From positions 62,001 through 126,000 of the forward strand of contig NZ_BMQU01000005.1 of the NCBI RefSeq assembly GCF_014648275.1: 64,000 nt of DNA. The letters run 5' to 3'. Source of the stretch: Pseudomonas laurentiana (lineage in GTDB: Bacteria; Pseudomonadota; Gammaproteobacteria; Pseudomonadales; Pseudomonadaceae). The notes below the pieces were generated by a model. It was not told the DNA's origin and did no database searches. It saw only the letters and a program-made list of their open reading frames with translations. This document shows, one piece after another, positions 14,936 to 35,470 of the stretch. A program made the translations under genes and the position numbers. Numbering within the stretch: position 1 is the first letter of the stretch; the number at the start of each line of letters is the position of its first letter.

Positions 14936-14942
14936 ATTCCAT

Positions 14943-15474: not shown

Positions 15475-15810
15475 TTTATTCTCAAAAGATGAGAATTGGT
15501 AGGCGGCTAGGTTGAAGGCCTTGAGTCATTTTTGACCCAGTCGTCGGAATGAAGCCTTGCGGTCGATTTCAGAGTCAGCGTATCGCTCCGAAGCGCATCA
15601 GCGCCTGGCTTCTCTCGGTAACCACATGCGACCACATGACAGGCTTGCTAACGCAGGTGCTACGGGTAATTTCCGTAAATGAAGGACGGCTCCATGAGCA
15701 TCCCAGCAACGGCAAAAACTTTGCCATGAGGTGAGATCGAATTCTGCCAATTGACGTGAGCCGTCACGTGATCGATCATTCCGCATAACGAATGTCAGGG
15801 ATGACTGGAA
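15475..15810. other. Gap with no recognised gene
   Basis: No reading frame here has convincing codon structure or a recognisable match. It probably contains the remains of the integrase region and the promoter of the following two-gene unit. I see no clear repeat. Confidence 0.4.
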
Positions 15811-16188: not shown

Positions 16189-17250
16189 ATGATTGATGCA
16201 GTTGACCTCTTTTGTGGTGCCGGCGGCCTGACCGCTGGCATGCGCAATGCCGGTATCGACGTCCACGCTGGCTACGATATCGAAGCCCAATGCAAGCACG
16301 CCTACGAAGTCAACAACGATGCGGTTTTCGTAGCTAAGGACGTCAAGAAACTCAACGAGAGGGAGCTGAGCGCCTGGTACCCAAGAGTCGAAGGCCGTTA
16401 CCGCTTGCTAGCTGGCTGTGCTCCTTGCCAACCCTTCTCTACCTATAATCAAGGGCGGGATACCAGCACTGACAGCAAGTGGCCTCTGCTTTATCACTTC
16501 GCTCGCTTGATCCGTGAAGTCAAGCCAGAGCTTGTTACGATGGAAAATGTGCCGGACGTGACCAAGCACAAGGTCTATGGCGACTTCGTGAAGAACCTCG
16601 AGAGTCAGGGCTACAAGGTATGGGCCCAACGTGTAGCTTGTGTCGAATACGGCCTACCTCAGCACCGGCGTCGCCACGTATTATTGGCATCCAAGCTTGG
16701 TCCTATCGAACTCATTGAGCCCACTCACCGCGATAAGCCTGTCAGTGTTATGGAAACGATCGGCGATTTACCTCGAATCGCAGCAGGTGCTTGCGACCCA
16801 AATGATCCAATGCATCGTGCGGCTACGCTGACCCCGATCAATCTGCAGAGAATCTTGAACTCTCGTGAGGGCGGCACTTGGCGGGATTGGCCTCCGCACC
16901 TGGTTGCAGAATGCCACCGCAAGGCCAGCGGTAAAACCTATCCCAGCGTCTATGGCCGAATGAAGAGGAATGAGCCGAGCCCCACAATGACCACGCTCTG
17001 TTATGGCTTTGGTAATGGCCGTTTTGGCCACTACGAGCAGGCCCGCGCATTGTCACTTCGAGAAGCAGCGATCTTGCAATCCTTCCCCAGAGACTACGAG
17101 TTCATGCCGGCGAAAGACATTACGTTCAAAGCAGTGGGCCGGATGATTGGCAATGCCGTACCAGTTCGCCTGGGTGAAGTGATCGGTGAAAGCCTCATGC
17201 GCCATGTCGAGGCGTACGGGCGGAACCGACGCCAGGAAACTCCCGCCTGA
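16189..17250 (+). CDS. DNA cytosine-5 methyltransferase (Dcm/DrmMII-like)
   Basis: A 353-residue C5 methylase with the motifs in order: DLFCGAGGLTAGM (6-18, SAM site), GCAPCQPFS with catalytic Cys80, ENV at 119-121, YGLPQHRRRHVLLAS (motif VIII), a short target-recognition region, then LSLREAAILQSFP and IGNAVPV near the end. It makes 5-methylcytosine; the target sequence cannot be read from the protein. Class 2 DISARM uses a methylase of this type, but here it is on the opposite strand from a class 1 operon. Its last 56 bases overlap vsr, tail to tail. Confidence 0.95.
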   Translation: MIDAVDLFCGAGGLTAGMRNAGIDVHAGYDIEAQCKHAYEVNNDAVFVAKDVKKLNERELSAWYPRVEGRYRLLAGCAPCQPFSTYNQGRDTSTDSKWPLLYHFARLIREVKPELVTMENVPDVTKHKVYGDFVKNLESQGYKVWAQRVACVEYGLPQHRRRHVLLASKLGPIELIEPTHRDKPVSVMETIGDLPRIAAGACDPNDPMHRAATLTPINLQRILNSREGGTWRDWPPHLVAECHRKASGKTYPSVYGRMKRNEPSPTMTTLCYGFGNGRFGHYEQARALSLREAAILQSFPRDYEFMPAKDITFKAVGRMIGNAVPVRLGEVIGESLMRHVEAYGRNRRQETPA

Positions 17251-17617
17251 GTCGCTCATCAAGCTCTGCAGGCTTGCGAGCTTCGCACTCCCAAATAACC
17301 AACACCCGCCAGCCCAGCTCTCGCAGCTGGGCTTCTTTTTTTGCATCCCGCTCGACATTGCCCTTGAACTTGGGAAGCCAATATTTCTGCCTGCTCTTTG
17401 GCGTACTCGCATAACGGCAGCCAGGATGTCGATGCCAGAAACACCCATGCACGAAGACCACCGTTCGGAATCGCGGCAGAACTATATCTGGCGAGCCAGG
17501 AAGATCCCGACGATGCAAACGAAACCTGAGCCCCAGGGCGTGCATTGCTTGGCGAACGATGATCTCTGGCCCAGTATGGGCACGCTTGACCGCACGCATG
17601 ATGTCGCTACGCGACAT
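17195..17617 (-). CDS. vsr: Very-short-patch mismatch endonuclease Vsr
   Basis: A 140-residue nuclease that nicks beside T:G mismatches arising when 5-methylcytosine deaminates. Conserved features: SRSDIMRAVKRAHTGPE, SPDIVLPRFRTVVFVHGCFWHRHPGC with catalytic Asp44 and the His/Cys cluster, YWLPKFKGNVERD, and GWRVLVIWECE. The ATG at 17617 follows GGGAGGGG; the longer frame adds 12 unlikely residues. It starts 16 bases after the drmC stop, so it is probably the last gene of the DISARM operon, and it overlaps dcm by 56 bases. Confidence 0.95.
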   Translation of the reverse strand: MSRSDIMRAVKRAHTGPEIIVRQAMHALGLRFRLHRRDLPGSPDIVLPRFRTVVFVHGCFWHRHPGCRYASTPKSRQKYWLPKFKGNVERDAKKEAQLRELGWRVLVIWECEARKPAELDERLRREFPGVGSARTPRHGA

Positions 17618-17633
17618 TACCCCTCCCCGACAC

Positions 17634-18407
17634 TCAATCGTCGACTGTAACAATCACCCCTGTCATCGCCAAGGCTTCCAGATGTCGATGAAGTTGCTCT
17701 GGTAATGGATCGCCCGAGATCAAGACCCCTGCCTCCATGTTCTGATCCATCGCATATCCAGTCAGGTTGGCACTGGTAATGAAGCAATATGCCCCATCCG
17801 CAACTGCGACCTTCGCATGCACACTACCATTGACGAACGCAGCACCTTTGTCTCTCCAGACGTAGAAAAGCGCATCAGGGACAATTCTCTTCAGATTACC
17901 AATAGGGTCCACGCTAACCTTGCCACCCTGAGCGCTCGAAAGCTCCATCAGAAACTCAATCTTCACGCCACGCTCTGTCGCTGACTTCAGAGCCCTGGCG
18001 ATCATCTCAATGTCGTACGCGACGTAACTGGTGATGAACAACCGCTGCTGAGCGGCATTGATCACCTGTATCAAAGCCTGCTCGGTTCGCCGAGCAGGAA
18101 CGAGCTCGGTTGTAGGCCCAGTCCACACCAGTTCGACCCTCTGCCGACTCTCTGCATGACGAAACGCATGTGCGGCGGCCATGAGCATTGCCGCCAATGT
18201 CTCGCCACTGATTGTCGAGACTTTCCAGGCCCCGACCAACCCCTTGAGCGTATTGTCGGCCTTCGCGGACAATGCGCCCACTCTAAGATCTCCAGCTTTT
18301 GCGACCTGCATTCCTCTGATCTTCGCCGCCAAAGCTGCTACGCGGTCATAGGAGACTATGGAAACCAACTCAGACACCGCTGCGAGTAGCTCTCGCATTT
18401 CAAGCAT
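17634..18407 (-). CDS. drmC: DISARM protein DrmC (phospholipase D fold)
   Basis: About 257 residues with a C-terminal PLD domain: one HxKx4D motif (NGSVHAKVAVADG) followed by CFITSANLTGYAMDQNMEAGVLI, as in DrmC. Such domains can be nucleases. DrmC is part of the DISARM core gene set but has been reported as not essential in the Bacillus system. The long open frame to 18725 overlaps drmB in another frame and is not credible. The start is either ATG 18407 (8-base overlap with drmB) or ATG 18398. Confidence 0.88.
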   Translation of the reverse strand: MLEMRELLAAVSELVSIVSYDRVAALAAKIRGMQVAKAGDLRVGALSAKADNTLKGLVGAWKVSTISGETLAAMLMAAAHAFRHAESRQRVELVWTGPTTELVPARRTEQALIQVINAAQQRLFITSYVAYDIEMIARALKSATERGVKIEFLMELSSAQGGKVSVDPIGNLKRIVPDALFYVWRDKGAAFVNGSVHAKVAVADGAYCFITSANLTGYAMDQNMEAGVLISGDPLPEQLHRHLEALAMTGVIVTVDD

Positions 18408-20262
18408 CCGGAAAGAATGCCGCTTTGGCATTCTCGAAAGTCGGCACGACCATCGCCCGATCAAGATAACGGTTGCCACGCTCGCACGATGTCTCCGCGA
18501 CAAAGGAGCAAGCATGGCATGCCGCTGCATGCAAACTACGGTCTTTCCGGGGATCATGCTCAGCGCACAGGGGGTCGGAGGAGCAAATGCGCGCACGCCG
18601 CAAAGCCTGAACCAGTAGGCGCTCCAAGTTTTCGGGTTTGCCCAGTTCGACCAAGCCACCCAAGGTACCATCGGAGTCCGCAGCGGCCGTGTAGATGATG
18701 AAGCCGCACTGGTTGCCATCCTCATTCACCTCGGCATAGATCCGCTCTCTGATGCTGGCCGCGTTGTATCCGCACTCCAACGCCAACTCGCGGATCAGAA
18801 GATGCGCCAGAGTGTGCAGCATCACGTAACGAGCACCTGGATAACCGTCTTCCGGAGGACAGAGACGGCGGGAGTTTCGCCAACCTTTGTGCCCACCGCG
18901 CAATTTCATGTCGGCGGCCTGCACGTCAGCTATCTGCTCCCACTCAGCTATCGCCTGCTCGTCGAACTGAATGAAGATGCCCTCACCGTGCACCTGATTC
19001 GCGGGGACCCAGTCAGGCTTCGTACGTGACAGTGGTGCCTGAATCGGTCCAACTCCAACTCCACCGGAGTCGTCAGGCGCCTCGACTCGCGTGAAGCCGA
19101 GCAAGGCGTTCACCTCGCGCAGACGCTTCAACAACAATACCCTGGCGATCTTGCCTTGGTAGCCCGGAGGAACGGCAACTGCCTCGGACAAGAAATGCGG
19201 ATAGTCATTCACCGGCACCGGGGCGATCAGCACCCGCCACTCGGGACCTTTGATATCCGCCTCGGTGACACTCTCGCCCTCTCCTGAGCGGTGAGCCTCG
19301 ATGCCTGCCCAAATGGCTGCTGCGGAATATTGGTCAATTCCAGGCAATGAGCCAGTTTTTTTCAATAGCTTGATGGTCAGAGGAACCTCATCGAGCGACT
19401 CCAGATCGCCGAAGAAGCTCCAACCATCTTCCAATAGCTGCGCTAGACCATCTTTTGCCTGAGGTATCGCCAACGCCGACAAGGAGACCGGAAACCAGCT
19501 ATTGGTAGCCCCCAACAGGACGGCCCGTGGCTCGGCATCGCAATCCGGATCGAACTGATCCAAATGAGGATGCCGTCCACGACAGCCCGGCAGGTTCTCC
19601 TTACCGAGCTGTCCGAAGGCATGAGCCATGTTCCGCGCCGCGCCGCAAGTATCGCATTTGACCCACAGGTTCTCGGTCTGAAGGGATGCACCACTCTCGA
19701 AGAAACGCAGCGTGCCTTTGCAATCGTTGGGGCCGCTGTGGACGAACCACTGCCAAGGAAAATCATCCAGATGCCCATTCTTGCAAGCCAAAAGGAAACG
19801 TGCAGGAACAGCATCGGCATCCTTCGCAGGCTGATCGCCCTTCGAGCCGCGACAGCCCTGATGCACGAAACGAGTCGCCTCAGGGCGGCGATACCCTTCC
19901 TTCAACTCGAACAACCCGCTGTCGTAAGGCGAGAGCAGCCCGCATTTCACACAGCGCAACCAACGAGGGAACGGCCGTACCGGCACACCGACATTAGCCT
20001 CCGCAGAGCTCGTGTCATTCGACTCGCTCTTGCTGATAGGCGGCATTCGTAGTGATTCGACCTGAGGACCAAGCGCTCTTTGCACCGCGGCGAGCAGGCG
20101 ATTTTCAATCACCAGGTTGCATCGATCCCTCTCCCAGATGTCGATACCTGAAGTCACGACCGACAGATTCGGCAAATCGATGAGGGCACCTGGACCATAG
20201 GTCCATAGCAGCTGGCTGGGCCGTACCGAGCCAACGGGAGTCTTTTCGTGCGCCATCTTCAT
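18400..20262 (-). CDS. drmB: DISARM protein DrmB (DUF1998)
   Basis: 620 residues. Opening SVRPSQLLWTYGPGALIDLPNLSVV is characteristic. Paired cysteines (RCVKCGLL near 112; CDTCGAARNM) suggest zinc ribbons; the C-terminal DUF1998 region has YVMLHTLAHLLIRELALECGY and a cysteine-rich end (CSSDPLC, CHACSFVAETSCERGN). DrmB forms the core DISARM complex with DrmA, which binds and blocks unmodified phage DNA. The ATG overlaps the drmA stop as ATGA; MAHEKT two codons later is an alternative start. Confidence 0.95.
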   Translation of the reverse strand: MKMAHEKTPVGSVRPSQLLWTYGPGALIDLPNLSVVTSGIDIWERDRCNLVIENRLLAAVQRALGPQVESLRMPPISKSESNDTSSAEANVGVPVRPFPRWLRCVKCGLLSPYDSGLFELKEGYRRPEATRFVHQGCRGSKGDQPAKDADAVPARFLLACKNGHLDDFPWQWFVHSGPNDCKGTLRFFESGASLQTENLWVKCDTCGAARNMAHAFGQLGKENLPGCRGRHPHLDQFDPDCDAEPRAVLLGATNSWFPVSLSALAIPQAKDGLAQLLEDGWSFFGDLESLDEVPLTIKLLKKTGSLPGIDQYSAAAIWAGIEAHRSGEGESVTEADIKGPEWRVLIAPVPVNDYPHFLSEAVAVPPGYQGKIARVLLLKRLREVNALLGFTRVEAPDDSGGVGVGPIQAPLSRTKPDWVPANQVHGEGIFIQFDEQAIAEWEQIADVQAADMKLRGGHKGWRNSRRLCPPEDGYPGARYVMLHTLAHLLIRELALECGYNAASIRERIYAEVNEDGNQCGFIIYTAAADSDGTLGGLVELGKPENLERLLVQALRRARICSSDPLCAEHDPRKDRSLHAAACHACSFVAETSCERGNRYLDRAMVVPTFENAKAAFFPDA

Positions 20263-23200
20263 TCGTCCTTATCAGTCGCCGCCGGGCGAGGCTTCCATTG
20301 AATATCGTCTTTGATCTTCGCTGAGTTCATGACCAAGCGAACGCCAGGCTCGACCTCGCGCATCGACATGGGCACCGTCCAGTTATCCCAAGTATGCGTT
20401 CCAGGTGACTTGATCAAGGCATAGGTCAGGTCCTTCTCAGACCCACGCTTCTCGTACGCCAAGATACGATTGCCCTGCATCACCTCATTCACCCACTGAT
20501 CCGCCCGCTGCTTGAGCATGCCGCTAGCGAGCTTCTTCGCAGGGGCCTCCGCGATGTTGTCGGCACGCGTTTCGAGCACCTTCATCGCATCCAGCATTTC
20601 CACCTGATTAGGTTGCTTGAGACTCTGCGCCCCCTCGTTCGGAGCGAAGCGATCGCTCTTGGCACGGATCAGCGACAGCATCGCCCCGGTCAGACCTCGA
20701 TCCATCGCACGCGGCGAGAACGGAGTGACCGATTGAGCCTCGACGTGTTTGTAGAACGTCGCGTGGTAATGCTCGAAGGTCTCGTAATGCGAGAGATCGC
20801 GTGGGCGAGCCCATGTCAGTACGGTACAGACCAACCCAGGGAATTGTCGGCCGACACGACTGGTTGCCTGAATGTATTCCGCCGTTCCTTTCGGCTGACC
20901 GTTGACGGCCATGATGCCCAACCGATTGACGTCGACGCCGACCGACAGCATGTTGGTCGCCAAAACGATGTCGATGGCACGTGCATCGCCCTCCTCCCAC
21001 TTGGTCACGTACCTACCTAGCTCGGGATCCCATTCAGACTTGAACATGACTTCGAGCTGATCGAGATACTTGGGGATGTCCTGGTTGGAAACCCGGGAAG
21101 TCAGTTCACGGATATTCATGACGCTGCGCTGCGCCAGACCAGGCCGCTGCACCATGCTCATTTGGACACGGTACGCACGGGTCTGCACATCGTCCTCGGC
21201 TAAACGCTTCATGCCTCCCAGCTCTCGCAACGAGTTGAAGTAGCCCACCATGGTCATGTAAGGATCGGCAGCTTTGCCGAATCGATCGAATAGTGCTTGA
21301 GCAGCAGTCAGCGCTGCCGTGTAGACACGGATCAACATCGCCGGCCGTGAGCTGCCCGGAGAGCAGATCCCTAGATAACGCCGTCCTGGCTTTTGCTCGA
21401 TGGGCCGCTGCACCGAGAAGAAGTTGTCCTCGACATCTAAGCCATGGGGCGGGAACACCGAGACCTGACGCATGAAGACGTTGTTGACCTGCTGCTGCGC
21501 CTTGCGAACGGTAGCGGTGGAGGCGATCACCTTCGGCCGGATAGCATCGCCATCGAACTGCCAGGTGCACAGCTCATCGACCGCGCTCTCGTAGAGACCC
21601 ACCATGGTTCCTAAGGGACCACTGATCAGGTGGAATTCGTCCTGGATGATCAGATCCGGAGGCCGCACCGGAGAAATAGCCTTGACCGAAGCAGCAGCCC
21701 TACCGGCAACAGCCCTATGACCGGTATTGCAATCCGAGCCAGGCCAAAGCAATCCATGGCGGGAACACTCCTTCGATACCCGGCCGAAGAGGTTCCGAAC
21801 CTGCCCACGCCACGCCATCATGGCGAACTTGTCCACCGTGGCGATCATCATTGACGGCGGGCGATGGTAAATCTCCTCGTCCACGACCATCACCGGCAAA
21901 CCAGGGTGTACCTGCTTGCTCGAACGACCACGAGAGAAGTCACAGGTGCTCAGCTTGTCGCCGCAATAGATCGTCGTACGCCCTGATATCTTATCGACCT
22001 CGATATCCCTCTTCGGGTCGATCTCGTTTCCGCACCATGGGCAACCTGTCAGCTGCGCCGGCGAAGCCATTCCGGTGGGGTTTCGCCCTGGGGTACGAAT
22101 GGCCTCGATGAACTTATGGCTATCCTCGGTAGTGCCAGGCGTTACCTTGTTACCGACCCAAAGGCCGATGGTGAATGCGCTCTCACCAAGGGACTTATCA
22201 CCTGCCGACAATGATTCCCGACGAATATGTTCCATCGCACAGATCAACGCGGTAGCCCGCTGGAACTGCTGCAAAGTCAGCAACCGAAGGGTGTAGCGCA
22301 TGATCACCGCCAGCCCGCGAGACGAATCGTAGTCCCCTAAATTTCCTTGTAGGCGGCGGATCACCATTGTAAATGCAGCCACCCCCAGGTAGGCCTCAGT
22401 CTTACCACCACCAGTGGGGAACCAGAGCAAATCTGCATAGGCCTGCAGAGGCTGAGTGCGATCCGTATGCTTAGGATCGGTCAGCCCAGGAACGGACAGC
22501 AGCAGGAAAGCCAACTGGAAGGGACGCCAAGAGCGGTTCTTCGGTACATCGAACTCCGCTAGCTCGACAGTGCGCCCGCGACGACGCTGCAAGGCGAACG
22601 CGCTATGCACCCGCTGGATCGCCATCGCTCGGTTAGCGAAACGGAAAGCCGCCAAGGCCTTGTCATCCGCAGCCAATAACCCCACACCCTCACGCAGACG
22701 AATCAGGATCGACTGACAGTGGCTCAGCGCCTCATCGGCTTGCTGCGCATAGCCAGCCACATCCCTATCAGTGCGTGCACGCTGATCCTTGATCCATGCT
22801 GCATAGTCCTCGGTCAGTATCCCGAGTGCAGCGACGAGTTGGTCTTTCTCCAGTTCTGCCAGTCGCTTCATATCCAGCAGACCTTCGTCGACCAATCTGC
22901 GCATCGCTGGCCGATCCTGCGGATCCAAACCCGGTGTTTCGGTGACCGGCACTTCGTATTGCGGCATCACCGCAGTGCGCAGCTCTATCGCCCTTGCCAC
23001 ATCTGGACCAGACACTGCATGCACTGCAACGCCGTGCCCTACTGCGAACTCGACCCGATCGCGATAGATCATCTCCAGCGCCAAGCGCTCGCGTAAATCG
23101 TCATCGTCATCGTCCGCAGCGCCAGCATCGGCTTCCAATGCTGGGCGGCGGCGGAATATATCTTTCAGCGAATTTTTGTCATTGGCTCGTACGAGGATTT

Positions 23201-24293
23201 CCGGCTGGAACACCCAAGCGGTATCGCGATTCTCATCAGGCTCCGTTTGGCCATTCACCAGGAACAGAGTGATCAATCGTTCACCCTTCTCGTTGGGTGA
23301 ACGCACCGTACCCTGGATGATCACTTCTGGGCAGGCAGAATCAGGGGTGACCGGAGAGATCACTCCATCCTTCAGCGCCAGCTGGAAGGTTCCACCGGAG
23401 GGCTTGCGCCGCCAGACTTTGGCTTTGAGAACTTGCTCGGTGGTCTTGATCACCCGGCCTTCGGCGTCCCGTACTGCCTTCTTGACCACCTTGGCATGAG
23501 CCGGGTCATCAGACTCGAAGCGCTCATAGCGCCCCCAACTCACCACCACCTCAAGGTTTTCCGCATCGCCGTCGACGCAAAAAGTGAACCCCAAGCTCGA
23601 CGGTGCGAGCGACTGGTTCGAGGCCGTATCGACCTCTTCCTCGGCTTCGGAGTCACCGCCACCAGTCTTTTGGGGAGAGTCGACCTTGTTCGACTGGGCC
23701 TTCGGCTCCAGATCCGCAGGCTCGACCTCCTCACTCTTTTCCGGGGGAGCCATTTCCTCACCGCGCTCTGCGTTTTCCATCGGCGCGAGCTTGCCGACGA
23801 GGTAGCGATCGCGAACGCTCATATCGATGATGAGCTCCTCCGGTCCACCGGCAGGCCCTAAAAGGTCGTCCATGATGGCGTACTGCAGCAGTTCACGAAC
23901 GTAAGCCTCGTCCTCAATAAGCGGAATGTCGGCGAGAGTGACGCCCAATGCACGAGGGATAGCCTCTGCGAACTCGGTCCAGGGAGTACGTACGACGCTT
24001 CCAGCGGTCGGAGGCAGCAAACCGGTGCTGCCGATCCCTACCACTGACTTGATCGTCTGGACCTTGTCGAAGTAAAGCGAAGTACCTTCCGCATCGACTC
24101 GAATACGCAAGACATGACCGACACACACGATGCTACCGGCTGGGTTCAAAACCAGTACCCAGGCCCCCTCGCGCAACGCGGGATGGTCTCCTTTCAGATA
24201 GACGACCTTGCCAGCCAAACGAGCGTCACGCCCCAAGCCACGATCGACGACTATCCAAGCCTCTAGGCTAGTGCTTTGCTGACTCTCTTCCAT
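20259..24293 (-). CDS. drmA: DISARM helicase DrmA
   Basis: A 1,344-residue superfamily-2 helicase-like protein. Walker A WFPTGGGKTEAYLG is near residue 625, a DEFH box (IIQDEFHLISGPLGTMVGLYESA) near 882, and helicase C motifs MLSVGVDVNRLGIM and YIQATSRVGRQFPG follow. An acidic, low-complexity stretch lies near 180-225. With DrmB it forms the DNA-binding core of DISARM. GTG 24299 and ATG 24293 are both possible starts; the ATG has the better spacing from AAGG. The previous gene stops only 9 bases upstream. Confidence 0.96.
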   Translation of the reverse strand: MEESQQSTSLEAWIVVDRGLGRDARLAGKVVYLKGDHPALREGAWVLVLNPAGSIVCVGHVLRIRVDAEGTSLYFDKVQTIKSVVGIGSTGLLPPTAGSVVRTPWTEFAEAIPRALGVTLADIPLIEDEAYVRELLQYAIMDDLLGPAGGPEELIIDMSVRDRYLVGKLAPMENAERGEEMAPPEKSEEVEPADLEPKAQSNKVDSPQKTGGGDSEAEEEVDTASNQSLAPSSLGFTFCVDGDAENLEVVVSWGRYERFESDDPAHAKVVKKAVRDAEGRVIKTTEQVLKAKVWRRKPSGGTFQLALKDGVISPVTPDSACPEVIIQGTVRSPNEKGERLITLFLVNGQTEPDENRDTAWVFQPEILVRANDKNSLKDIFRRRPALEADAGAADDDDDDLRERLALEMIYRDRVEFAVGHGVAVHAVSGPDVARAIELRTAVMPQYEVPVTETPGLDPQDRPAMRRLVDEGLLDMKRLAELEKDQLVAALGILTEDYAAWIKDQRARTDRDVAGYAQQADEALSHCQSILIRLREGVGLLAADDKALAAFRFANRAMAIQRVHSAFALQRRRGRTVELAEFDVPKNRSWRPFQLAFLLLSVPGLTDPKHTDRTQPLQAYADLLWFPTGGGKTEAYLGVAAFTMVIRRLQGNLGDYDSSRGLAVIMRYTLRLLTLQQFQRATALICAMEHIRRESLSAGDKSLGESAFTIGLWVGNKVTPGTTEDSHKFIEAIRTPGRNPTGMASPAQLTGCPWCGNEIDPKRDIEVDKISGRTTIYCGDKLSTCDFSRGRSSKQVHPGLPVMVVDEEIYHRPPSMMIATVDKFAMMAWRGQVRNLFGRVSKECSRHGLLWPGSDCNTGHRAVAGRAAASVKAISPVRPPDLIIQDEFHLISGPLGTMVGLYESAVDELCTWQFDGDAIRPKVIASTATVRKAQQQVNNVFMRQVSVFPPHGLDVEDNFFSVQRPIEQKPGRRYLGICSPGSSRPAMLIRVYTAALTAAQALFDRFGKAADPYMTMVGYFNSLRELGGMKRLAEDDVQTRAYRVQMSMVQRPGLAQRSVMNIRELTSRVSNQDIPKYLDQLEVMFKSEWDPELGRYVTKWEEGDARAIDIVLATNMLSVGVDVNRLGIMAVNGQPKGTAEYIQATSRVGRQFPGLVCTVLTWARPRDLSHYETFEHYHATFYKHVEAQSVTPFSPRAMDRGLTGAMLSLIRAKSDRFAPNEGAQSLKQPNQVEMLDAMKVLETRADNIAEAPAKKLASGMLKQRADQWVNEVMQGNRILAYEKRGSEKDLTYALIKSPGTHTWDNWTVPMSMREVEPGVRLVMNSAKIKDDIQWKPRPAATDKDE

Positions 24294-24302
24294 GCTCACC
24301 CT

Positions 24303-25505: not shown

Positions 25506-25518
25506 GCCTACGTCTGCC

Positions 25519-26514: not shown

Positions 26515-26517
26515 CGC

Positions 26518-27933
26518 TCAGTCTCCCTGCTTCCTGGCTTTCACCAGCTGCATCTCGAAGCAAACCTCCCCAACGATGCCAGGCTTTTCTTCTTGGTCAT
26601 CGAACAACATCTTTGAGACAAGACGCACTTCCTCGATGGGTCGGGAGAACACTATCCTTCGGGAAGAGGGCTTCTTCTCGTCCGGCACTGGCAGCACCTT
26701 GGCCTTCAGGGGATTGAATTCAATATGGCCGTCGGGCTTCTTGGCGAGTTTGCGTGATTCGATAGCCGCTATGACCTTGCCAAGCGGCATCGGCCGAGCA
26801 TCTGCCCAGTAGCGGGATTGGTCGGCACGTGGGTGGTTCTTCCACTGGTTGGTGTAGGAGATCCATATCCGCATGCCCTCCTTCATCTTGACGAGGGACT
26901 CCAACCAAACGTTCGATGACGTGTCAAGGGCGCGCTTCGTCGTGGTGACCGGAAGCTTGTCAGCGCGATGCGATCTAAACTCGATGATGCCTGTGACTAT
27001 GGAGAACTGCGGGTGGTAGAGCGGAATACCGTCTCCCCATCCCGTCAAGCGGTTCTTATCCCCCACGATAACCGCACGATCGTTGCAGAGTACTGTCCAA
27101 CCAGAGGTCGAAGATGATCGGTCACCTTCAAAACCAGCGTCATCCTCGTTGTCATCGCCAGAACTCTTGGAAGTGTTCAATCCGACAGTGATGGAAACGA
27201 GCACATCATCGATCGTTTTCTGGAATACGTACGGTGCGGGACTGTCCTCATCCTCCGAAACGAGCACTTCGACCCGAACTGGCAGAACAGGCTCACCGTT
27301 GAGCTCCACTTTGAGCCCCCACTGGAGAAACATCGTGAAATGCTCAGCGATCGCAGTACGCACCTCATTCTCGAAAGCAGCATTGCCAAAGTGTCTTGCG
27401 ACGCCCTCATGCAGTTCACGAACGAGAATGGTAGTGCCTGGCTCATCTAGATTTTCGCTCGCCTCACTCGGCTCATTGATCGGCAGGGGATCCCAGTTCT
27501 TCGCATCAAGCCATTCAGAGGTGATCGGCACCTCGAATGTATCCTCGTCATGCCGAGTCCGAACCAAAGCGTTGCGCCCCATTTTGAAGATGGCGCGCTT
27601 CATGCCGACCCCGTACATCCCGATCGTTTCAGCGTCTGAGTCACGGTCATCGTCAGAATCACGGCCCATCTTGAACGCATAGTTCTTGGCGACATCACGA
27701 GGGATTCCGCCGCAGTTGTCGGCAATGGAAAAATGATCTCCGTCGATCTCGATCTTCACGAAATGCTTGGAATAGTCGACCTGGGCACCGTGAACAAGCC
27801 GCAATGCGCCATCCAAGCAGTTGTCGAGCAGATCCAGGATGGCGTCGGCAAGGCTAATGTCACGCGTCAGCATCGACACGAAAAACTGTTTGGTCGGGCT
27901 TGCTTGTGCGCGATCTTCGCTAGGTTTGGTCAT
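26518..27933 (-). CDS. GHKL (MORC/MutL-like) ATPase
   Basis: 471 residues with a Bergerat-fold ATPase at the N-terminus: N box AILDLLDNCLDGA (31-43), ADNCGGIP (71-78) and GMYGVGMKRAIFKMG (105-119). GHKL ATPases clamp DNA or drive restriction complexes, and MORC-like members are known in bacterial restriction-modification operons. Two motif residues are unusual: Asp34 where most have Glu, and DNCGG instead of DxGxG. TTG 27939 begins the open frame, but ATG 27933 follows TAGGA. It lies 71 bases after drmMI, the largest gap in the operon. Confidence 0.85.
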   Translation of the reverse strand: MTKPSEDRAQASPTKQFFVSMLTRDISLADAILDLLDNCLDGALRLVHGAQVDYSKHFVKIEIDGDHFSIADNCGGIPRDVAKNYAFKMGRDSDDDRDSDAETIGMYGVGMKRAIFKMGRNALVRTRHDEDTFEVPITSEWLDAKNWDPLPINEPSEASENLDEPGTTILVRELHEGVARHFGNAAFENEVRTAIAEHFTMFLQWGLKVELNGEPVLPVRVEVLVSEDEDSPAPYVFQKTIDDVLVSITVGLNTSKSSGDDNEDDAGFEGDRSSSTSGWTVLCNDRAVIVGDKNRLTGWGDGIPLYHPQFSIVTGIIEFRSHRADKLPVTTTKRALDTSSNVWLESLVKMKEGMRIWISYTNQWKNHPRADQSRYWADARPMPLGKVIAAIESRKLAKKPDGHIEFNPLKAKVLPVPDEKKPSSRRIVFSRPIEEVRLVSKMLFDDQEEKPGIVGEVCFEMQLVKARKQGD

Positions 27934-28004
27934 ATACAAATCCTATTTGTTCGGTTCTTCTTCACTGACACGTCAGACTTCTTACTCTCGCTACGAGAAG
28001 AATA

Positions 28005-31000
28005 CTATTCACTGCCGCCTTCTCCCCTGACCCGATAACGAGCACTGCGCCTTTCACCTTGGCGCTCGACCTTATTACCTGCAATCAAGTCGGAGATAGC
28101 AGCATTCCATTGCCCATCCGAAATGCCAGTTTCTGCAAGAATATCGGACTTTGCTTGCCATTTTTTGGTAGTCCCAAGGAACTGAAGAATTTTGGCGATT
28201 GGTGATTCTCCATTAACAACCGACACTGGCTCAACATCGAAGTTGAGCCCGGACTGAACTGGAATTTTGTCAATGAGGGGAGCGACACGCGAGCTTCGGG
28301 TTGGTGCTCGCTTAATACTACTGCCATGTAATCCTCGAGCTATCTCTTCCTCATACCGCTGGCGGTTCAGCCCCGACAAACGACGCAACACTTCAACGCG
28401 AGCAGTCTCAGAGATTGTGAAACGGAGACGATCGTTATCTGGCAGATACGAAACTGCATGGTACCCATGTTCCAAATCAAGGTCATCCCAGCCGTAAGCG
28501 TATGCGATGGCGGTATCCATTTCTTGCTGTAGCGCGCGTAGCCCCTCAATACGAGGATCATACTCAGCATCAGAGTGGAAGCGGTTGTAGAGCTTAGTCA
28601 GACCGATGTGGTCTGCCCGCATTAACTCAAGGCGCTCCTGATGGAAGCGCTCGCCAAGGTTATCTAGTGGCATCATTTTTAAATCGGCGGGAAAAGGAAA
28701 TGTCTCTATAGCATCAGACGGCCCATACCTCAGGTCGTTCTTCATGCGAGAACAGTGTTGCCAAGCAAATGCAGCATGTATGCTTGATTGAAGCAACGCA
28801 AAATCGGATCCCCGATCAGAGGGAAAAATAACTGTCTGCTCAGAAAAAATTTGCTCTGAGCTTACGAATGAGAAAGCCAACGTCTTACTTACGCGTGTCA
28901 GCGCCAGAACTCGCTTCCTAGAGTTCACACTAACATCCCAGCCTTTCGGATGTTTTTCAAAATAATGGCCACATCCTATCGTGTGGTAGAGCTCTTTTGC
29001 AGATGCTTCGTAGAGCCACCAATTATCCCGCACTTTCTTTTTGGCAGGATTTATTTGATCACGATGCGGCTTGACTCTGGCAAGTACAATCTGCATTGCT
29101 TCCGAATATTTTCGTGCACGTTCCTCAGGCCAATCCCAAAAATTGATCACCCAGCGACTAGGCTTTTGCTCAGGATGAGTATTGATATCTTGGCCAATCA
29201 AGTAGGGGAAAATTACTTCGGAATATCTTGAGTCTTCATGAATGAGTTTCTTGGCTTCCGCCTCTTCAAGTACAAAGCCAATTCCATTAAGAAACGAGCC
29301 AATAAAAGCTTTACCCTCGTTAGACTTTAGCCGCGCTGGACTCCAGTCATCCTGGCTAGATAAGTATGCCGATATGTAGCGAACAGGGTGCCCATTCAAC
29401 GACCTAGTGGCACACCAATCACCCTTGTAGAGATGAACACGGCTGGTAACAACTGCAGCAGAGCCCGGCCATGGCTCATTTGGCCAAGCAGCGTATATCG
29501 TTGCACCGTGCTTGAGCAGCCACTCCAGACCACCTTGTCGGGTGTCTCCCTCGGCAACTGTGTTGGTCGCCAGGAGCCCGAAGCTTCCCTCCCTCCGTAG
29601 GATATCGAAAGCTCGGCGAAAGAAATGCGCTGCTAAATCCATGTTTTTGCTCGCGCCTGAATGTGTGCTCGCGAGATAGACGTTAAACCTAACCCCCATT
29701 ACTGTGCTGATACGTTTTCCACCAAGGAAAGGTGGATTGCCCACGATGCAATCGAAACCACCTTGATCGCGAACGAACACCTCCGGAAACTCCAGTGGCC
29801 AGTGGAAAGGCCTGCGCGCAGGCTTTTCGCGGGATAAATCTGACGAGAGTGCAACGACCGACCTTCTCCGCATTGAGGCAATCATGTCGCGGTCGCCGTC
29901 AATGGCCTGTCCAGCCTGGATCGTCAGCGAAGCCAACATGCTCTCCTGCCCCGCACCATTACCGCCCGAGAAAAACACCTCACCGATAAACGCATCGGCA
30001 ATGCTTTCCGGCACTTGGAGCTTGCGACGCGCATCTGCGTCCAGATGTGCCATGACTTCGACGTCAAGGATGTCGCGGATCGGCATCTCCCGCAGCCGTT
30101 GCCTCAAATCGATCGCCTCATGAACCGCCCGCTCGATATTCTGTCCGAACAAGCGTTTTTGGCCTCTACCGGTAGGCGCCATCGAGAGTTCGGTGAGTTG
30201 ATCCAGCCGATGGATGCCAAGCAGGCTATCACCACAGCGCAAGTTGTGGTCCAGAAAGCCGAACGGCCTGCCCTTGGCCATCGTCACCAGCCAGATGGAG
30301 AGCTTGGCGAGCTCCACCGCCAGGGGATTCAGATCCACGCCGTAGAGGCAGCGTTCGGCGACAAGGCGGCGAGCGATCACGGTGCGGGTCTCGGCATCCC
30401 TGAGCAGAGGCTCCTCGGCACCCAGCGCATCCAGGATTTCGCCGTTCACGCTCACTTTCTTTCCGCTGTCTTCAACCTTCGACCATGCCTCGACTAGGCG
30501 ATCGGCCAGCCAACGACAAGCCTGCACCAGGAAAGCTCCCGAGCCCATGGCCGGATCGCAGATCTTCAGATCCAGCAGTTCGGATGGCGGCTTCAGCACC
30601 AATTGTTCACGCGGAGTCCCCTCTGCCGCTCCCTTGTAGATGATCGGCGTCAGCGTCTCGTCAACAATGGCTTCGGTGAGCGATTTCGGTGTGTAGTGCG
30701 TTCCCGTCTCGCGCCGATCGCTAGCTGTAGTGACGATGAATGCCCCCTCAGGGTAAATCAGCGGGTAGTCCCAATGATCGGTACGCAGCAGGTTGAGGAA
30801 TGGCAATGCACGATCACGCAGGCCTTCGTCTCCAGCGCAAGCGGTGAGCAAACGGTTGGCCTGGACAGCATCGACCGAGCGTTCGAGATCCTTGCGGATA
30901 GCTCCTACTCCACGCTTGATCGCATCGGCACTGGAGAGCATATCGGCCAACACGTCGCCTCCCCGTAGGTGCAGAGCTTCGAGCTCTTCCAGAGCATAGA

Positions 31001-32348
31001 GGGTCTTCTTTGCCCCCTTGCCCCCGGCAAGCTCCACTGACACCCGCTCGGTTCGTCCGACAGTCCTCTCCAGCAATCCTTCGTAGACGTAACCGATCTG
31101 CTCCACATCCAGAGCTCGGTAGGAAAGCGTACGCCCTTCGTACTGCTGGATCGCCTCCAGCAGGAGCATCACGGTACGGTTATCTATCGGTAGTGGTCGC
31201 GCGGAGTCGATCTTCCAATCGGAGCCCTTGGAACGCCCCTCAAGGAACGGGAAACGATCCGGGTCGAACAGCGAACCACCCAGTGCCGGAAGGAGCAGCA
31301 TTTCATGTTCGATGCCGCCGTAAACCGCTCGGAATGTCGCTAGTAACCGTGACCAGGCATCGTTGCGCCGCTCCAACACCTCCTCGGTTTCCTGGCGCAG
31401 CTGCATACGCAGAGTGGAAATGGCGTAGTTGCTTTCGTACGCCTCCTCTCCCATCAGCAAGAGTCCCCGTTCCTCAGCCGACAGCAGGAACACCAGACGC
31501 ATCATGATGGTCAGACCCGCTTCGTAGAGCTCGGTCGGCTCGACACCTTGCAGCAGCGTCCCTGACCGTTCACGGTCTTCCTTACCCAGTGACTGGATCA
31601 ACACCTCAACCGCCCGGCGGACTTGTTCACCCAGGGCATCGGTGACCTCCTCCTGATGGTGGAGAGACTCATCCAGCATCGAGGGCAAGGACTCATCGTC
31701 TGGGCCGAAGAAGCGCCGTATACCCAGTAGAGTGAGAAAGGCCTGCAGCGTCAACCGCTCCTGCCCCCAGAGGCGTGCATACCAACTTGCGAAGGTCGAT
31801 ACAGCGCCAACGGGAGCATCGACCAGCATCCAGCGCTCACCATCGGTGACCAAACCAAGGCGACAGCCGCTGGCCCGGCAAAGCCGCTCCATGCGCTCGG
31901 CTGGACTGGCGGACCAGCCATCCAATTTCAGTGCGGCCTGGAGATCCGTGCCCGCCGCATAAATTTGCACGAGCAGCTGGCTTTTGCCGCCCGAGACCAA
32001 CGCATAGTCAGGCTCCAAGGTGACACCGTGTTCCGGCAGAGTGACGCGCATCTCAGAAGGAATGCACTCACCTCGTAATAGAAGTTCACCGCTATCGTTC
32101 TCGTCGTATTCCAAGCCGCGGGCAAGCACCTCGTGAATCCAGGCGCGATGCAATTCGGTGAACCTGGGATCGTCGTTGTCACGAGCCTCGCACCACTCAT
32201 CATAAGCCTGCCGCAGGTACTGTCGAATACGAGGCTCGACCGCAGGTAGACCAGTGGAGAAGACTCGTTTCAGTACCGGCGTGGCGAGGAAAGGACCGGA
32301 GACCTCAATCAGCGACAACCATTCATCGTGAATATCGAGGGGTTTCAT
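28005..32348 (-). CDS. drmMI: DISARM adenine methyltransferase DrmMI
   Basis: 1,447 residues, related to Eco57I/PglX-type N6-adenine methylases. The amino-terminal third is helical; RRETGTHYTPKSLTEAIVDE leads into motif I DPAMGSGAFLVQ (near 598), DLNPLAVELAKLSIWL, and NPPF (near 870). The C-terminal third would hold target recognition. It marks self DNA so that DISARM attacks only unmodified DNA; a Serratia class 1 relative has been reported to methylate an adenine-containing 6-base site. The ATG overlaps the drmD stop by ATGA. GC falls sharply in the target-recognition part. Confidence 0.95.
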   Translation of the reverse strand: MKPLDIHDEWLSLIEVSGPFLATPVLKRVFSTGLPAVEPRIRQYLRQAYDEWCEARDNDDPRFTELHRAWIHEVLARGLEYDENDSGELLLRGECIPSEMRVTLPEHGVTLEPDYALVSGGKSQLLVQIYAAGTDLQAALKLDGWSASPAERMERLCRASGCRLGLVTDGERWMLVDAPVGAVSTFASWYARLWGQERLTLQAFLTLLGIRRFFGPDDESLPSMLDESLHHQEEVTDALGEQVRRAVEVLIQSLGKEDRERSGTLLQGVEPTELYEAGLTIMMRLVFLLSAEERGLLLMGEEAYESNYAISTLRMQLRQETEEVLERRNDAWSRLLATFRAVYGGIEHEMLLLPALGGSLFDPDRFPFLEGRSKGSDWKIDSARPLPIDNRTVMLLLEAIQQYEGRTLSYRALDVEQIGYVYEGLLERTVGRTERVSVELAGGKGAKKTLYALEELEALHLRGGDVLADMLSSADAIKRGVGAIRKDLERSVDAVQANRLLTACAGDEGLRDRALPFLNLLRTDHWDYPLIYPEGAFIVTTASDRRETGTHYTPKSLTEAIVDETLTPIIYKGAAEGTPREQLVLKPPSELLDLKICDPAMGSGAFLVQACRWLADRLVEAWSKVEDSGKKVSVNGEILDALGAEEPLLRDAETRTVIARRLVAERCLYGVDLNPLAVELAKLSIWLVTMAKGRPFGFLDHNLRCGDSLLGIHRLDQLTELSMAPTGRGQKRLFGQNIERAVHEAIDLRQRLREMPIRDILDVEVMAHLDADARRKLQVPESIADAFIGEVFFSGGNGAGQESMLASLTIQAGQAIDGDRDMIASMRRRSVVALSSDLSREKPARRPFHWPLEFPEVFVRDQGGFDCIVGNPPFLGGKRISTVMGVRFNVYLASTHSGASKNMDLAAHFFRRAFDILRREGSFGLLATNTVAEGDTRQGGLEWLLKHGATIYAAWPNEPWPGSAAVVTSRVHLYKGDWCATRSLNGHPVRYISAYLSSQDDWSPARLKSNEGKAFIGSFLNGIGFVLEEAEAKKLIHEDSRYSEVIFPYLIGQDINTHPEQKPSRWVINFWDWPEERARKYSEAMQIVLARVKPHRDQINPAKKKVRDNWWLYEASAKELYHTIGCGHYFEKHPKGWDVSVNSRKRVLALTRVSKTLAFSFVSSEQIFSEQTVIFPSDRGSDFALLQSSIHAAFAWQHCSRMKNDLRYGPSDAIETFPFPADLKMMPLDNLGERFHQERLELMRADHIGLTKLYNRFHSDAEYDPRIEGLRALQQEMDTAIAYAYGWDDLDLEHGYHAVSYLPDNDRLRFTISETARVEVLRRLSGLNRQRYEEEIARGLHGSSIKRAPTRSSRVAPLIDKIPVQSGLNFDVEPVSVVNGESPIAKILQFLGTTKKWQAKSDILAETGISDGQWNAAISDLIAGNKVERQGERRSARYRVRGEGGSE

Positions 32349-35300
32349 GCGCGGCCTCCCTGGGCTAGCGATACAGGTACGATGAAAATGACGGCTACCG
32401 GGAAGGTGCGATCCTGCGGTTCGGCATAGCGTGCTTCGATGGCCCTGGCTTCCTCTTCCCGCTCCGTGGGAATACGCGCAAGACGTGCTTGCAGGGCGGA
32501 GTTGTCGCGTCGAACCTGGGTACGCTCATCTTCACTGAACAAAGAAAACTGCTCAGGCAACTCGTCCTTGCCCAGTTCCCTGCGAATGGCGCTATCCAGC
32601 TCATCAAGCACGGCGAGAATGTCTTCTTTTTCTTTGCTCTTGCGGGTTTCCAGGGTGTTGCCCAAATACTCGAGACGATTGCGTGAGCGTGCTCCGAGGG
32701 ATTGCTGGATGGCCTCTGCTGCTGTGGCAAAGCGAGAGCGCAATATGGCGAAGACCGAGTCATCAAGCCGACACGGCTGCGCGTCCTCCAACCAGGCCTG
32801 TACGCGGGCGACGCCTTCTTCGCGCTTGAAGCCCTGTTCGCGCAGATAGCCCCCAGCCAACGTCAGTTCCTCATGTAGACGATGGTGATTACCGCCAGTG
32901 ATCACCAAGCGCGACACGACCACGACCGCTGGGGCCTCGATACGATCGTCAGGCAACGTTCGCACCGTCACTCGATGCAAACGCTTATTGTCTTCCTGCA
33001 CCCAAACTTCGGCACGCAGCAAACGCAGACACATCTGCACCAATCGATGATTGAGATGGATGAGCACCAGATCATCTCGCCCATTGGCGATTTCATGATC
33101 GAATGTCACCGGGCGGATCTTTCCGGTGAATGGATGCTCCAGCCCTTCGCGGCAACGCTCCCAAGCGCCCCCCAGGGGCGGCAGCTCGAAGACTTTACCC
33201 GGCGTGATTCCCACCAACGTCAGCGGTTTGAGCGCCGGCTTCTCGGCCAACGCCAAGCCGGTTTCGACTGCCTTCAGGATGTGCTCGGGAGAGAGATGAA
33301 AGTCCTCTCGAGTCTCGACCAACTTCTCATGTAGCTTGGCTATTCGGTTAGCGAGGTCTTTTTCAGCTCTAACGAATCGGCGAGCCTGGGCTATCTTCGC
33401 GTCCGCCAATCGGGTATCCAGATCACGCAGGGCCCCTTCGATGAGCCCTGACATCTGCGGTGCGATCACTGGGTTCACGCTGCCCATATCGGCACGCATG
33501 GAATCGAGCTTGCGCAAGGCGCGCAGGATATCATCTTGGTGGCCACCGACAGCATCCTGATCTTGGCGAGCATCGACCGGGTGCCAAATCACCACCTCTT
33601 TTTCACGTTGGCCATGGCGGTCGATACGACCGTTGCGCTGCTCCATGACGTTTGGATTGTACGGAATCTCCAGGTGAATTAAATAGTTACAGTGATTCTG
33701 CAGGTCGATGCCTTCGGAAGCGGCGTCGGTGGCCAGCAGGATGCGCACGGGGGAAATGTCTGGAGAGGCCTGGAATGCCGCCTTCACTTGCTCTCTATCA
33801 TCGTGATCCATACCGCCATGCAAGATCATCAGGCGATCGCCACCCAAATCATGAGTCGCCAGAATCTGATGTAGCCAGTCGAGCGTGGTACGGTACTCGG
33901 TGAAGAGAATCACTCGTTTACCATTCCAGGATCCATCGGTCTTCAGATGCCGATGAATCCAATTAAGCAGCGCTTTGGCCTTGGAGTCGATTTGATTCAT
34001 CGCCTGCTGAGCCCAATGCCTGAGCTCATCAAGCAGGATACGCTCCTCTGCGTTCAACGGGCGTGAGTGGCGCGTGGCATCCTCGACGGCCTCTTGCTGC
34101 GCGATCTCGACGTCTGAGTCGTTGGCGTAATCCTCTTCGGCACGCTGGATAGCCTTGAGCAAAATTCGCTCGGACAGATCAGTCCGCCCTTTGATAGTTC
34201 CGCCACTTTCCAAGGTCGCGACATGCTTTTCCAGGGTCGACGCGAAGGCAGCAGGTGACGAGAACAAGCGCTTGCGTAGCAGCTGGTTGACAAAGGACGC
34301 GCCGGTCACGCCGCCCAACTCGTCATCCGCGATTTCCCTGCTGGCACAGAATGCTTGCAGCTTGCGATGAATCTCTCTTTCTTTGGTGGTGTAGTCGACA
34401 GGCAACGCTTCGAGCTTGCGCTGCGCATAGATCAGGTTTCCATCCTTGTCGGTGATTTCGCTCTTGAGACGACGGATCATCACCTGAGACAGCTGCTTCT
34501 CTTCCGGCAGGATGTTGCGAGCAAAACGCTGATCATCGAGCAGCTCCAACAGCGAAGTGAAAGACTCGGTGTAGCCGTTGTGCGGTGTCGCAGTCAGAAA
34601 CAGATGGTGCTGGAAATGCGGGGCGATTGTGCGAATGAAGCGAGTGCGTTGGCTTTCAATAGCGTATTGAGCGCTAGCTGACGGCGCGACGTTGTGCGCC
34701 TCGTCGACAACCAACATATCAAATTTGCGCGGATAGCTGACATGCGCCGGCAGGATATCGCGGAAGGCACGCAAACCATCGCCGGCCTTAGCCCAATCCA
34801 TCGACGTGATCAGACGCGGGAACGAGGTCCAAGGATTGGCATGTATTCCACGCTCGCGTCGCATCTCCTTGATGTAAGTGCTGTCGACGATACGAAATTC
34901 CAGACCAAACTTTTCCATCATCTCGACACGCCACTTTTCTTGCAGTGACGCGGGGCAGACGATCAGCACAGTTCGAGCACGATGACGCAGTAGCATTTCC
35001 TGAATGACCAAGCCGGCTTCGATGGTCTTGCCCAGACCTACATCGTCGGCGATCAGCAGATTGACGCGCGCCATGTCGATTGCACGAACCAGGGGATCCA
35101 GCTGGAAGTCTTGCAGACTTACACCACTGCGAAACGGTGCCTGGAGGAAGCCGCGATCAGCATTGGTAGCAGCCCCCCAACGCACGGCATCGAGAAAAGC
35201 CTCCAGAGTACAGGAGTCGTCCTGTCCGGTGATGGCTGGCAAACCAGCACGTTCAATGACATGCGCACCTGGCTCAATTTCCCAAATCACCTGGAGCTCT

Positions 35301-35470
35301 TCGCCGAGGGCATCCTCATCAATGGAAGCCAGCGTGACAGCGTGCTGCTGCACGCTGCCTAACTTGGAAGCGTCCACCTCAGCCACCACCCACTGCCGGC
35401 GTCTAACTTCGACAAGCTGACCTGGTTCCGGGATATCACGGTAGCTGCTGCCTTCCGCCATTGCAGTCAT
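32345..35470 (-). CDS. drmD: DISARM SNF2-family helicase DrmD
   Basis: 1,041 residues. Helicase motifs in order: LLIADDVGLGKTIEAGL (Walker A, near 140-156), MLVVDEAHNV (near 253), FLTATPHNGY, then RVILFTEYRTTLDWL, ATDAASEGIDLQNHC and NPNVMEQRNGRIDRHGQ. The C-terminus is charged and partly coiled. Presence of DrmD with an adenine methylase defines class 1 DISARM. The open frame begins at TTG 35521, but ATG 35470 (MTAMAEGSSYRDIPEPGQ) follows AAGGGG. It is the first gene of the operon. Confidence 0.95.
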   Translation of the reverse strand: MTAMAEGSSYRDIPEPGQLVEVRRRQWVVAEVDASKLGSVQQHAVTLASIDEDALGEELQVIWEIEPGAHVIERAGLPAITGQDDSCTLEAFLDAVRWGAATNADRGFLQAPFRSGVSLQDFQLDPLVRAIDMARVNLLIADDVGLGKTIEAGLVIQEMLLRHRARTVLIVCPASLQEKWRVEMMEKFGLEFRIVDSTYIKEMRRERGIHANPWTSFPRLITSMDWAKAGDGLRAFRDILPAHVSYPRKFDMLVVDEAHNVAPSASAQYAIESQRTRFIRTIAPHFQHHLFLTATPHNGYTESFTSLLELLDDQRFARNILPEEKQLSQVMIRRLKSEITDKDGNLIYAQRKLEALPVDYTTKEREIHRKLQAFCASREIADDELGGVTGASFVNQLLRKRLFSSPAAFASTLEKHVATLESGGTIKGRTDLSERILLKAIQRAEEDYANDSDVEIAQQEAVEDATRHSRPLNAEERILLDELRHWAQQAMNQIDSKAKALLNWIHRHLKTDGSWNGKRVILFTEYRTTLDWLHQILATHDLGGDRLMILHGGMDHDDREQVKAAFQASPDISPVRILLATDAASEGIDLQNHCNYLIHLEIPYNPNVMEQRNGRIDRHGQREKEVVIWHPVDARQDQDAVGGHQDDILRALRKLDSMRADMGSVNPVIAPQMSGLIEGALRDLDTRLADAKIAQARRFVRAEKDLANRIAKLHEKLVETREDFHLSPEHILKAVETGLALAEKPALKPLTLVGITPGKVFELPPLGGAWERCREGLEHPFTGKIRPVTFDHEIANGRDDLVLIHLNHRLVQMCLRLLRAEVWVQEDNKRLHRVTVRTLPDDRIEAPAVVVVSRLVITGGNHHRLHEELTLAGGYLREQGFKREEGVARVQAWLEDAQPCRLDDSVFAILRSRFATAAEAIQQSLGARSRNRLEYLGNTLETRKSKEKEDILAVLDELDSAIRRELGKDELPEQFSLFSEDERTQVRRDNSALQARLARIPTEREEEARAIEARYAEPQDRTFPVAVIFIVPVSLAQGGRA

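Follow-up and report, generated by a model that had tools for sequence, protein, structure and literature searches.

A class 1 DISARM operon of Pseudomonas laurentiana with a GHKL ATPase and MT35 pair and an AspBHI-like nuclease gene between drmMI and drmA

The first paper on DISARM is said to be that of Ofir et al. in 2018. In its class 1 form, the system comprises drmD, drmMI, drmA, drmB, and drmC, and the locus analyzed here fits this class by its family matches. The window, a stretch of 64,000 nucleotides from Pseudomonas laurentiana (RefSeq assembly GCF_014648275.1, contig NZ_BMQU01000005.1, positions 62,001 to 126,000 of the forward strand, within a genome of about 5.2 Mb), carries all five genes in order in one cluster with strong family matches but differs from standard class 1 DISARM in two respects: cargo is present at the drmMI-drmA junction, namely genes for a GHKL ATPase, for a methyltransferase-like protein of family PF20553 (Methyltransf_35, hereafter MT35), and for an AspBHI-like modification-dependent nuclease; and a DrmMII-like C5 cytosine DNA methyltransferase and the mismatch endonuclease Vsr are encoded alongside. 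Several other described systems resemble parts of this locus. For MORC and paraMORC operons with SWI2/SNF2 helicases, cytosine methylases, and Vsr, roles in restriction-modification have been predicted (Iyer et al. 2008, PMC2292703), and the window shares this neighborhood of a GHKL ATPase, whereas the available text of that paper describes no PF20553-like partner, no DISARM slot, and no trio in a P2 hotspot. Other HATPase_c_3 genes linked with C5 methylases and Vsr are described in the available part of Bellieny-Rabelo et al. 2021 (PMC8011034). The nuclease shows near whole-length homology to the AspBHI/MspJI family of 5-methylcytosine (5mC)-dependent endonucleases (PDB 4oc8 and 4rzl) and keeps residues of the flipped-base pocket, but it lies inside a DISARM operon and has R87 replaced by K, as in LpnPI, and N63 by T. 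Among GHKL-type restriction enzymes, the PADLOC model REase_II matches GHKL proteins occupying the same slot in two other loci (L086, 402 bits; L067, 107 bits), and that of L067 also scores 210 bits against NF050001 (BbrUII/HgiDII), below the cut-off of 550; the GHKL protein of the window, on the other hand, matches no REase_II or NF050001 model and is paired with MT35. A literature search for PF20553 or Methyltransf_35 found no paper, and one on DISARM with GHKL and restriction returned only papers unrelated by title, a result that describes this search and not the printed literature at large. The available main text of a survey of YprA helicases that includes DISARM (PMC12458937) uses neither of the terms GHKL and MORC.

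According to open reading frames (ORFs) and family searches, the nine genes of the operon, all on the minus strand, run drmD, drmMI, GHKL, MT35, AspBHI-like, drmA, drmB, drmC, and vsr, which agrees with an earlier note on this DNA that had read five class 1 genes in order, three extra genes between drmMI and drmA, and a vsr gene after drmC. We consider it slightly better than an even bet that this is a class 1 DISARM operon whose drmMI-drmA junction is a cargo slot, here holding a GHKL-MT35 unit and a separate AspBHI-like nuclease, so that the locus would provide a three-layer defense. The gene content and order, the recurrence and modularity of the cargo, and the bias toward one slot were observed directly, as follows. 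A scan for MT35 in one genome per species gave 55 loci, the search patterns limiting what could be found, and together with the window and a Microvirga plasmid these make a set of 57. A GHKL gene directly precedes MT35 in 56 of the 57. DISARM surrounds the pair in 25, whereas the other 32 show no drm gene in the available stretch, several of these lone loci being on short contigs. In the DISARM loci, the pair lies between drmMI and drmA or, where the contig begins at GHKL (L020), directly before drmA. The hosts span several proteobacterial classes and include Pseudomonas, Massilia, Burkholderia, Curvibacter, Paucibacter, Kaistia, Rhizobium, Bauldia, Novosphingobium, Sphingomonas, Brevundimonas, and Nguyenibacter, as well as one Planctomycetota and one Myxococcales metagenome-assembled genome, for which the host assignment may be wrong. 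A recurring GHKL-MT35 arrangement therefore exists in DISARM, and the recurrence with conserved order in distant genera that the earlier note had proposed as a check holds for this pair. The AspBHI-like gene accompanies it in three of the 25 DISARM loci and none of the 32 lone ones. The nuclease gene also occurs in one genome with the pair (G348) and in one without it (G320), and none of 20 plasmid records carries it at 60% identity or more. As it is separable in both directions, we set aside the idea of the three genes as one effector cassette, and a DISARM variant with its own nuclease step could, judged by gene content, hold only for the few loci with an AspBHI-like gene.

The C5 methyltransferase was detected in 19 of the 25 DISARM and 25 of the 32 lone MT35 loci and vsr in 16 and 11, respectively, all of these being lower bounds because flanks end near 10 kb and some annotated vsr genes were missed (as in L075). 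From these sequences, a DrmMII-like C5 methyltransferase is the usual neighbor of DISARM in this sub-clade, and Vsr a frequent one. In other genera, many DISARM loci run in one direction through methyltransferase, vsr, drmD, drmMI, GHKL, MT35, drmA, drmB, and drmC, the Microvirga plasmid being an annotated example; the methyltransferase of the Pseudomonas loci lies downstream, in convergent orientation. Vsr itself was set aside as a member of the cargo, as it is found in DISARM loci with or without cargo (e.g. L064, L068, L069, and L084). In a DISARM locus on a Deinococcus plasmid that lacks cargo, genes for Vsr, a cytosine methyltransferase, and an ATP-binding protein follow immediately downstream (L075, 27314-31051).

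The slot was also viewed from drmD, in overlapping samples of 399 genomes at genus, 369 at class, and 398 at phylum level, with 337 from a second class and 311 from one order (E-value limits of 1e-60 for the genus sample and 1e-150 for the others). A drmD at least 65% identical to that of the window occurs in 15 genomes, and the 13 readable slots among them hold GHKL-MT35 (three), another GHKL-type gene (three, two of them with identical drmD), a defense-associated reverse transcriptase (DRT; one), or no ORF of at least 110 residues (six). The nearest drmD relative of the window (G024, 94%) has none of the three extra genes and only a 330-base gap in the slot. Other contents of the slot are a GHKL gene with an SpbK-like C-terminal stretch, which we take to be a TIR domain; a DRT-type RT_UG5-nitrilase (948 bits; L080, 5940-9122, where drmMI is interrupted by an IS66 transposase); a KAP NTPase; a DUF7946-like protein; and a GHKL gene matching PADLOC REase_II plus a Schlafen AlbA_2/Fic-like protein. 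In L011, a DUF7380/DUF4209 gene precedes GHKL, and L012 has an Mrr_cat gene between drmD and drmMI, with homologues in L019 and L028. Among the 35 loci L064-L098, obtained by drmD searches, gaps between neighboring drm genes were counted in 28; L071-L074, L085, L088, and L098 were excluded, as were gene pairs on opposite strands. Gaps above 350 bp number 14 of 24 at drmMI-drmA, 4 of 28 at drmD-drmMI, 1 of 27 at drmA-drmB, and 1 of 23 at drmB-drmC (Fisher p of 1e-3, 2e-5, and 9e-5 for the first junction against the other three, the loci being non-independent). Fragments of split drm genes or transposases lie in some of the large gaps (L080, L093, L094, and L095); once each 95% drmD cluster is reduced to a single locus and the split genes are removed, the counts become 8 of 17, 2 of 18, 0 of 22, and 1 of 18, with p of 0.03, 0.0004, and 0.007. 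Inserts are thus biased to drmMI-drmA, clearly so in comparison with drmA-drmB and drmB-drmC and weakly in comparison with drmD-drmMI. These counts bear on the possibility that the genes came together merely through accumulation in a defense island. The operon does lie beside ssrA, a truncated integrase gene, and integrase-like remnants seen by eye near 38.7-39.3 kb, and GHKL-MT35 is found at many other sites; nevertheless, the repeated use of one junction in the same direction, the spacing of 3-13 bases in the window, and the insert bias make such chance packing very improbable, and we judge the placement of the pair at drmMI-drmA in 25 of the 57 MT35 loci not to be due to chance.

The history of the cargo was followed in quick trees. 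In that of drmD (48 rows, without L011, L027, L093, and L094, whose drmD is short, and loci lacking a drmD above 550 bits), every GHKL-MT35 carrier falls within one 34-row branch (SH-aLRT 92), and the presence of the pair needs seven changes, at least six of them forced by well-supported branches, two rows with an unreadable slot being uncounted; L009 and L065 come from one genome, as do L008 and L046. A single insertion confined to one lineage was set aside on this basis, and neither outcome that would have told against the earlier proposal applies to the pair: it is not limited to one lineage, and although it stands at other sites in 32 of 57 loci, it is with DISARM in 25. The proposal that the three extra genes form one set is not supported, the AspBHI-like gene being optional and GHKL-MT35 occurring outside DISARM. 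In the GHKL tree (56 rows), the division into DISARM and lone loci needs four changes; 23 lone rows make up one side, and 27 DISARM rows, one of them a duplicate, share a 33-row branch with six lone rows. The C5 methyltransferase tree, without the short sequences of L013 and L018 and matches below 150 bits, intermixes cargo-bearing, cargo-free, and lone loci. GHKL in four far loci is 78-82% identical to that of the window and the AspBHI-like protein in four loci 75-77%, with drmD at 65-84% across the compared loci, and L009 is close in both GHKL (94%) and drmD (92%); this pattern fits an exchange of cargo between DISARM operons or a stronger constraint on the cargo. An alternative is an integrated DISARM subtype in which GHKL and MT35 are working subunits, e.g. 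a clamp loading DrmAB and a further modification enzyme. Such a role would explain why the pair is found at one position and in one order, with tight or overlapping spacing, in 25 DISARM loci of several classes, and the concentration of DISARM-linked GHKL rows in one branch may reflect a DISARM-adapted form. We nevertheless find it doubtful, given the 32 loci with no drm gene, the close DISARM relatives that do without the pair (G024, G017, and G184), the filling of the same slot by unrelated genes elsewhere, and a GHKL divergence that does not track that of drmD in the compared loci.

Outside DISARM, the pair keeps company with a C5 methyltransferase. No drm gene was seen in the inspected stretches of the 34 viral MT35 loci, and in 33 of them both GHKL and a C5 methyltransferase lie within 4.5 kb of MT35; in the one exception, the contig breaks off at the start of MT35. 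In 17 of the 34, the neighboring ORFs correspond in size to P2 terminase and gpA; for L108, terminase, portal, and gpA are confirmed by Pfam, and one 125-residue ORF is present in addition to the trio. In a P2-type prophage of E. coli EC77, the trio is all that is annotated between the portal and replication endonuclease genes; a megablast query for this arrangement matched 2 of 5426 E. coli genomes, and one with the window operon against E. coli genomes gave no match. The inovirus PfAC20, a filamentous phage of Pseudomonas, has an ATP-binding protein, an MT35 relative (26% identity), and a cytosine methyltransferase as ORF1-3 (L133, 280-3711). We presume the portal-gpA interval to be the exact position of the P2 hotspot. 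Whereas the trio stands together there in P2-like prophages, that of the window has DISARM genes between its members. Rousset et al. 2022 (PMC9122126) described P2 hotspots that hold antiviral genes; the word methyltransferase does not occur in the available main text of their paper. The result indicates a compact three-gene unit, also present in P2-like prophages, and its PF00145 member is a candidate for the self-modifying DNA methyltransferase expected of restriction-modification. A different reading of the trio is that GHKL and MT35 regulate or assist the C5 methyltransferase, in methylation maintenance or control, with no defense arm. The frequent link with that enzyme, the predicted S-adenosylmethionine (SAM) methyltransferase fold of MT35, and the lack of a nuclease domain are all compatible with this, but the trio is found both in DISARM and at a site of P2-type prophages where anti-phage genes are known to occur, and restriction-enzyme models of PADLOC recognize other GHKL proteins encoded in the DISARM slot, which makes a purely regulatory role improbable.

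The GHKL gene (26518..27933, minus strand, ATG at 27933) encodes a MORC/paraMORC-like HATPase_c_3 protein in which the ATP-binding motifs are present and a weak match to MORC3/MORC4 profiles is found (E 0.002-0.004). Position 36, in the N-box, is Asp in 54 of 55 relatives; we assume this to be the site of the usual catalytic Glu, and ATP hydrolysis may be slow or different in consequence. MT35 (25519..26514, minus strand; PF20553, 275 bits) is modeled with a predicted local distance difference test score (pLDDT) of 87.9 and a predicted template modeling score (pTM) of 0.87, and by our reading of the predicted secondary structure its strands and helices succeed one another as in class I methyltransferases, the conserved GGPFLEDF following strand 1 and E67 and D110 closing strands 2 and 4, respectively; G44, G45, E67, and D110 are invariant in 33 sequences. 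In this model, MT35 has the features of a class I SAM methyltransferase, i.e. a Rossmann fold, a glycine-rich motif I, and an acidic end of strand 2. Its profile found no relative among the sequences of solved structures in PDB (one match, E 0.75), and neither the GHKL protein nor the MT35 of the window matched a PADLOC or NCBIfam model. The AspBHI-like protein (24303..25505, minus strand; RE_AspBHI_N and Mrr_cat; E 1.7e-94 to AspBHI, 4oc8) aligns along nearly the whole of AspBHI, including the SRA-like N-terminal domain with the 5mC pocket and the PD-(D/E)XK domain. Of the eight pocket residues named in the available text of PMC4499157, it keeps W69, D71, Y82, Y83, G84, and D85 and differs at R87 and N63.

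All of the biochemical activities in the three-layer scheme are predicted. The C5 methyltransferase would mark self DNA with 5mC, and Vsr would repair T:G mismatches arising from 5mC. The GHKL ATPase, most likely as a MutL/MORC-like DNA clamp, and its putative SAM-binding partner MT35 would form an arm acting on unmarked DNA, and with a nearby C5 methyltransferase they would make a module resembling restriction-modification that can also stand alone. The AspBHI-like enzyme would cut DNA with 5mC or 5-hydroxymethylcytosine outside the context used by the host and so block the escape of cytosine-modifying phages. Together with DISARM, which would likewise act on DNA lacking the marks of the cell, one locus could then check for both missing and foreign methylation. 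The available text of Bravo et al. (PMC9142583) reports that the ATPase activity of DrmAB is lower on 5mC DNA. A likely reader of foreign cytosine methylation would stand beside a writer of the cell's own, and the C5 methyltransferase would have to avoid the context of the AspBHI-like enzyme, YS(mC)NS if it shares the specificity of AspBHI.

Several points weigh against this scheme. The GHKL-MT35 step is its weakest link because no known nuclease domain was found in either protein by family search; no nuclease constantly accompanies the pair either, leaving the supposed restriction arm with no recognized cutting domain. VcSduA, a tested phage-defense protein described in the available text of PMC12137116, joins a GHKL ATPase domain to a nuclease domain; by analogy, it shows that GHKL domains serve in phage defense, and its fused nuclease is what GHKL-MT35 would be missing. 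Members of the clade that lack the pair keep the C5 methyltransferase (e.g. L069, L083, and L084), which must therefore serve something else there, probably DISARM. From its sequence, the AspBHI-like enzyme beside that methyltransferase would be self-toxic unless the contexts differ. Sampling by MT35 necessarily enriches for the pair, which fills just 3 of the 13 readable slots when the clade is sampled by drmD. Concerning the slot, its bias is weak against drmD-drmMI after removal of near-copies (p 0.03), the 350-bp cut-off was our own choice, the plasmid loci are the best 8 of 159 matching records, and the inserts include small genes for toxin-antitoxin systems or element excision. As a bolder version, which we put forward tentatively and rate below even, class 1 DISARM would be a chassis whose cargo bay lies at the drmMI-drmA junction, and the trio an unnamed anti-phage system in which a MORC-like clamp and a methyltransferase-fold partner replace the standard nuclease, one DrmMII-like methyltransferase marking self for both. 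If true, DISARM would be no fixed operon but a modular platform swapping defense modules at one junction.

The remaining genes of the locus are as follows. The SNF2-type helicase gene drmD (32345..35470, minus strand, likely start ATG 35470; Helicase_C and SNF2) scores 1515 bits against PADLOC DrmD, and at full length also 2079 bits against a model labeled DrmA, which looks like a matter of library labeling. DrmMI is an MmeI/Eco57I-type N6 methyltransferase (28005..32348, minus strand; PADLOC DrmMI 1888 bits, type IIG model 1896 bits) with Eco57I, MmeI_Mtase, and MmeI_TRD domains. The minus strand then carries the helicase gene drmA (20259..24299; PADLOC DrmA 1571 bits), drmB for a DUF1998/MZB protein (18400..20262; NF038324 747 bits, cut-off 240; MZB), drmC for a PLD-type nuclease (17634..18407; NF038319 DISARM_DrmC_I 243 bits, cut-off 133; start approximate, near 18400), and vsr (17195..17617; TIGR00632 140.7 bits, cut-off 97.9; likely start ATG 17617). 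The C5 methyltransferase gene (16189..17250, plus strand; PF00145, best PADLOC match DrmMII at 311 bits), absent from the gene list of the earlier note, is convergent with vsr and overlaps its 3' end. From likely starts, drmD and drmMI overlap by 4 bases, followed by distances of 71 (drmMI-GHKL), 3 (GHKL-MT35), 13 (MT35-AspBHI-like), and 3 (AspBHI-like-drmA), a 4-base overlap of drmA and drmB, about 0 between drmB and drmC, and 16 between drmC and vsr, so that the single 71-base gap claimed previously, with all other spacings from -4 to 16, was reproduced. This gap holds no promoter-like or terminator-like match, and across the region such matches are no commoner than in shuffled sequence; from this layout, a single transcript of the nine genes is plausible.

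A small protein with the pattern C..C..DHVPS..C..C follows drmC or MT35 in several loci (L016, 17731-20122; L031, 11214-11948; L027, 14792-15478); it looks HNH-like by eye, had no Pfam match in the two scanned, and in L016 lies beside another GHKL gene. The cluster of the window adjoins ssrA (tmRNA) and a truncated P4-type integrase gene (14544-15515), and integrase-like remnants can be seen by eye on the far side, at about 38650-39350. These features suggest a decayed island at ssrA; in a search with exact words of at least 13 bases, the ssrA 3' region was not found a second time in the window. Directly upstream of drmD, a YagK/YfjJ-family replication-like gene (35955-36557) is a trace of a mobile element.

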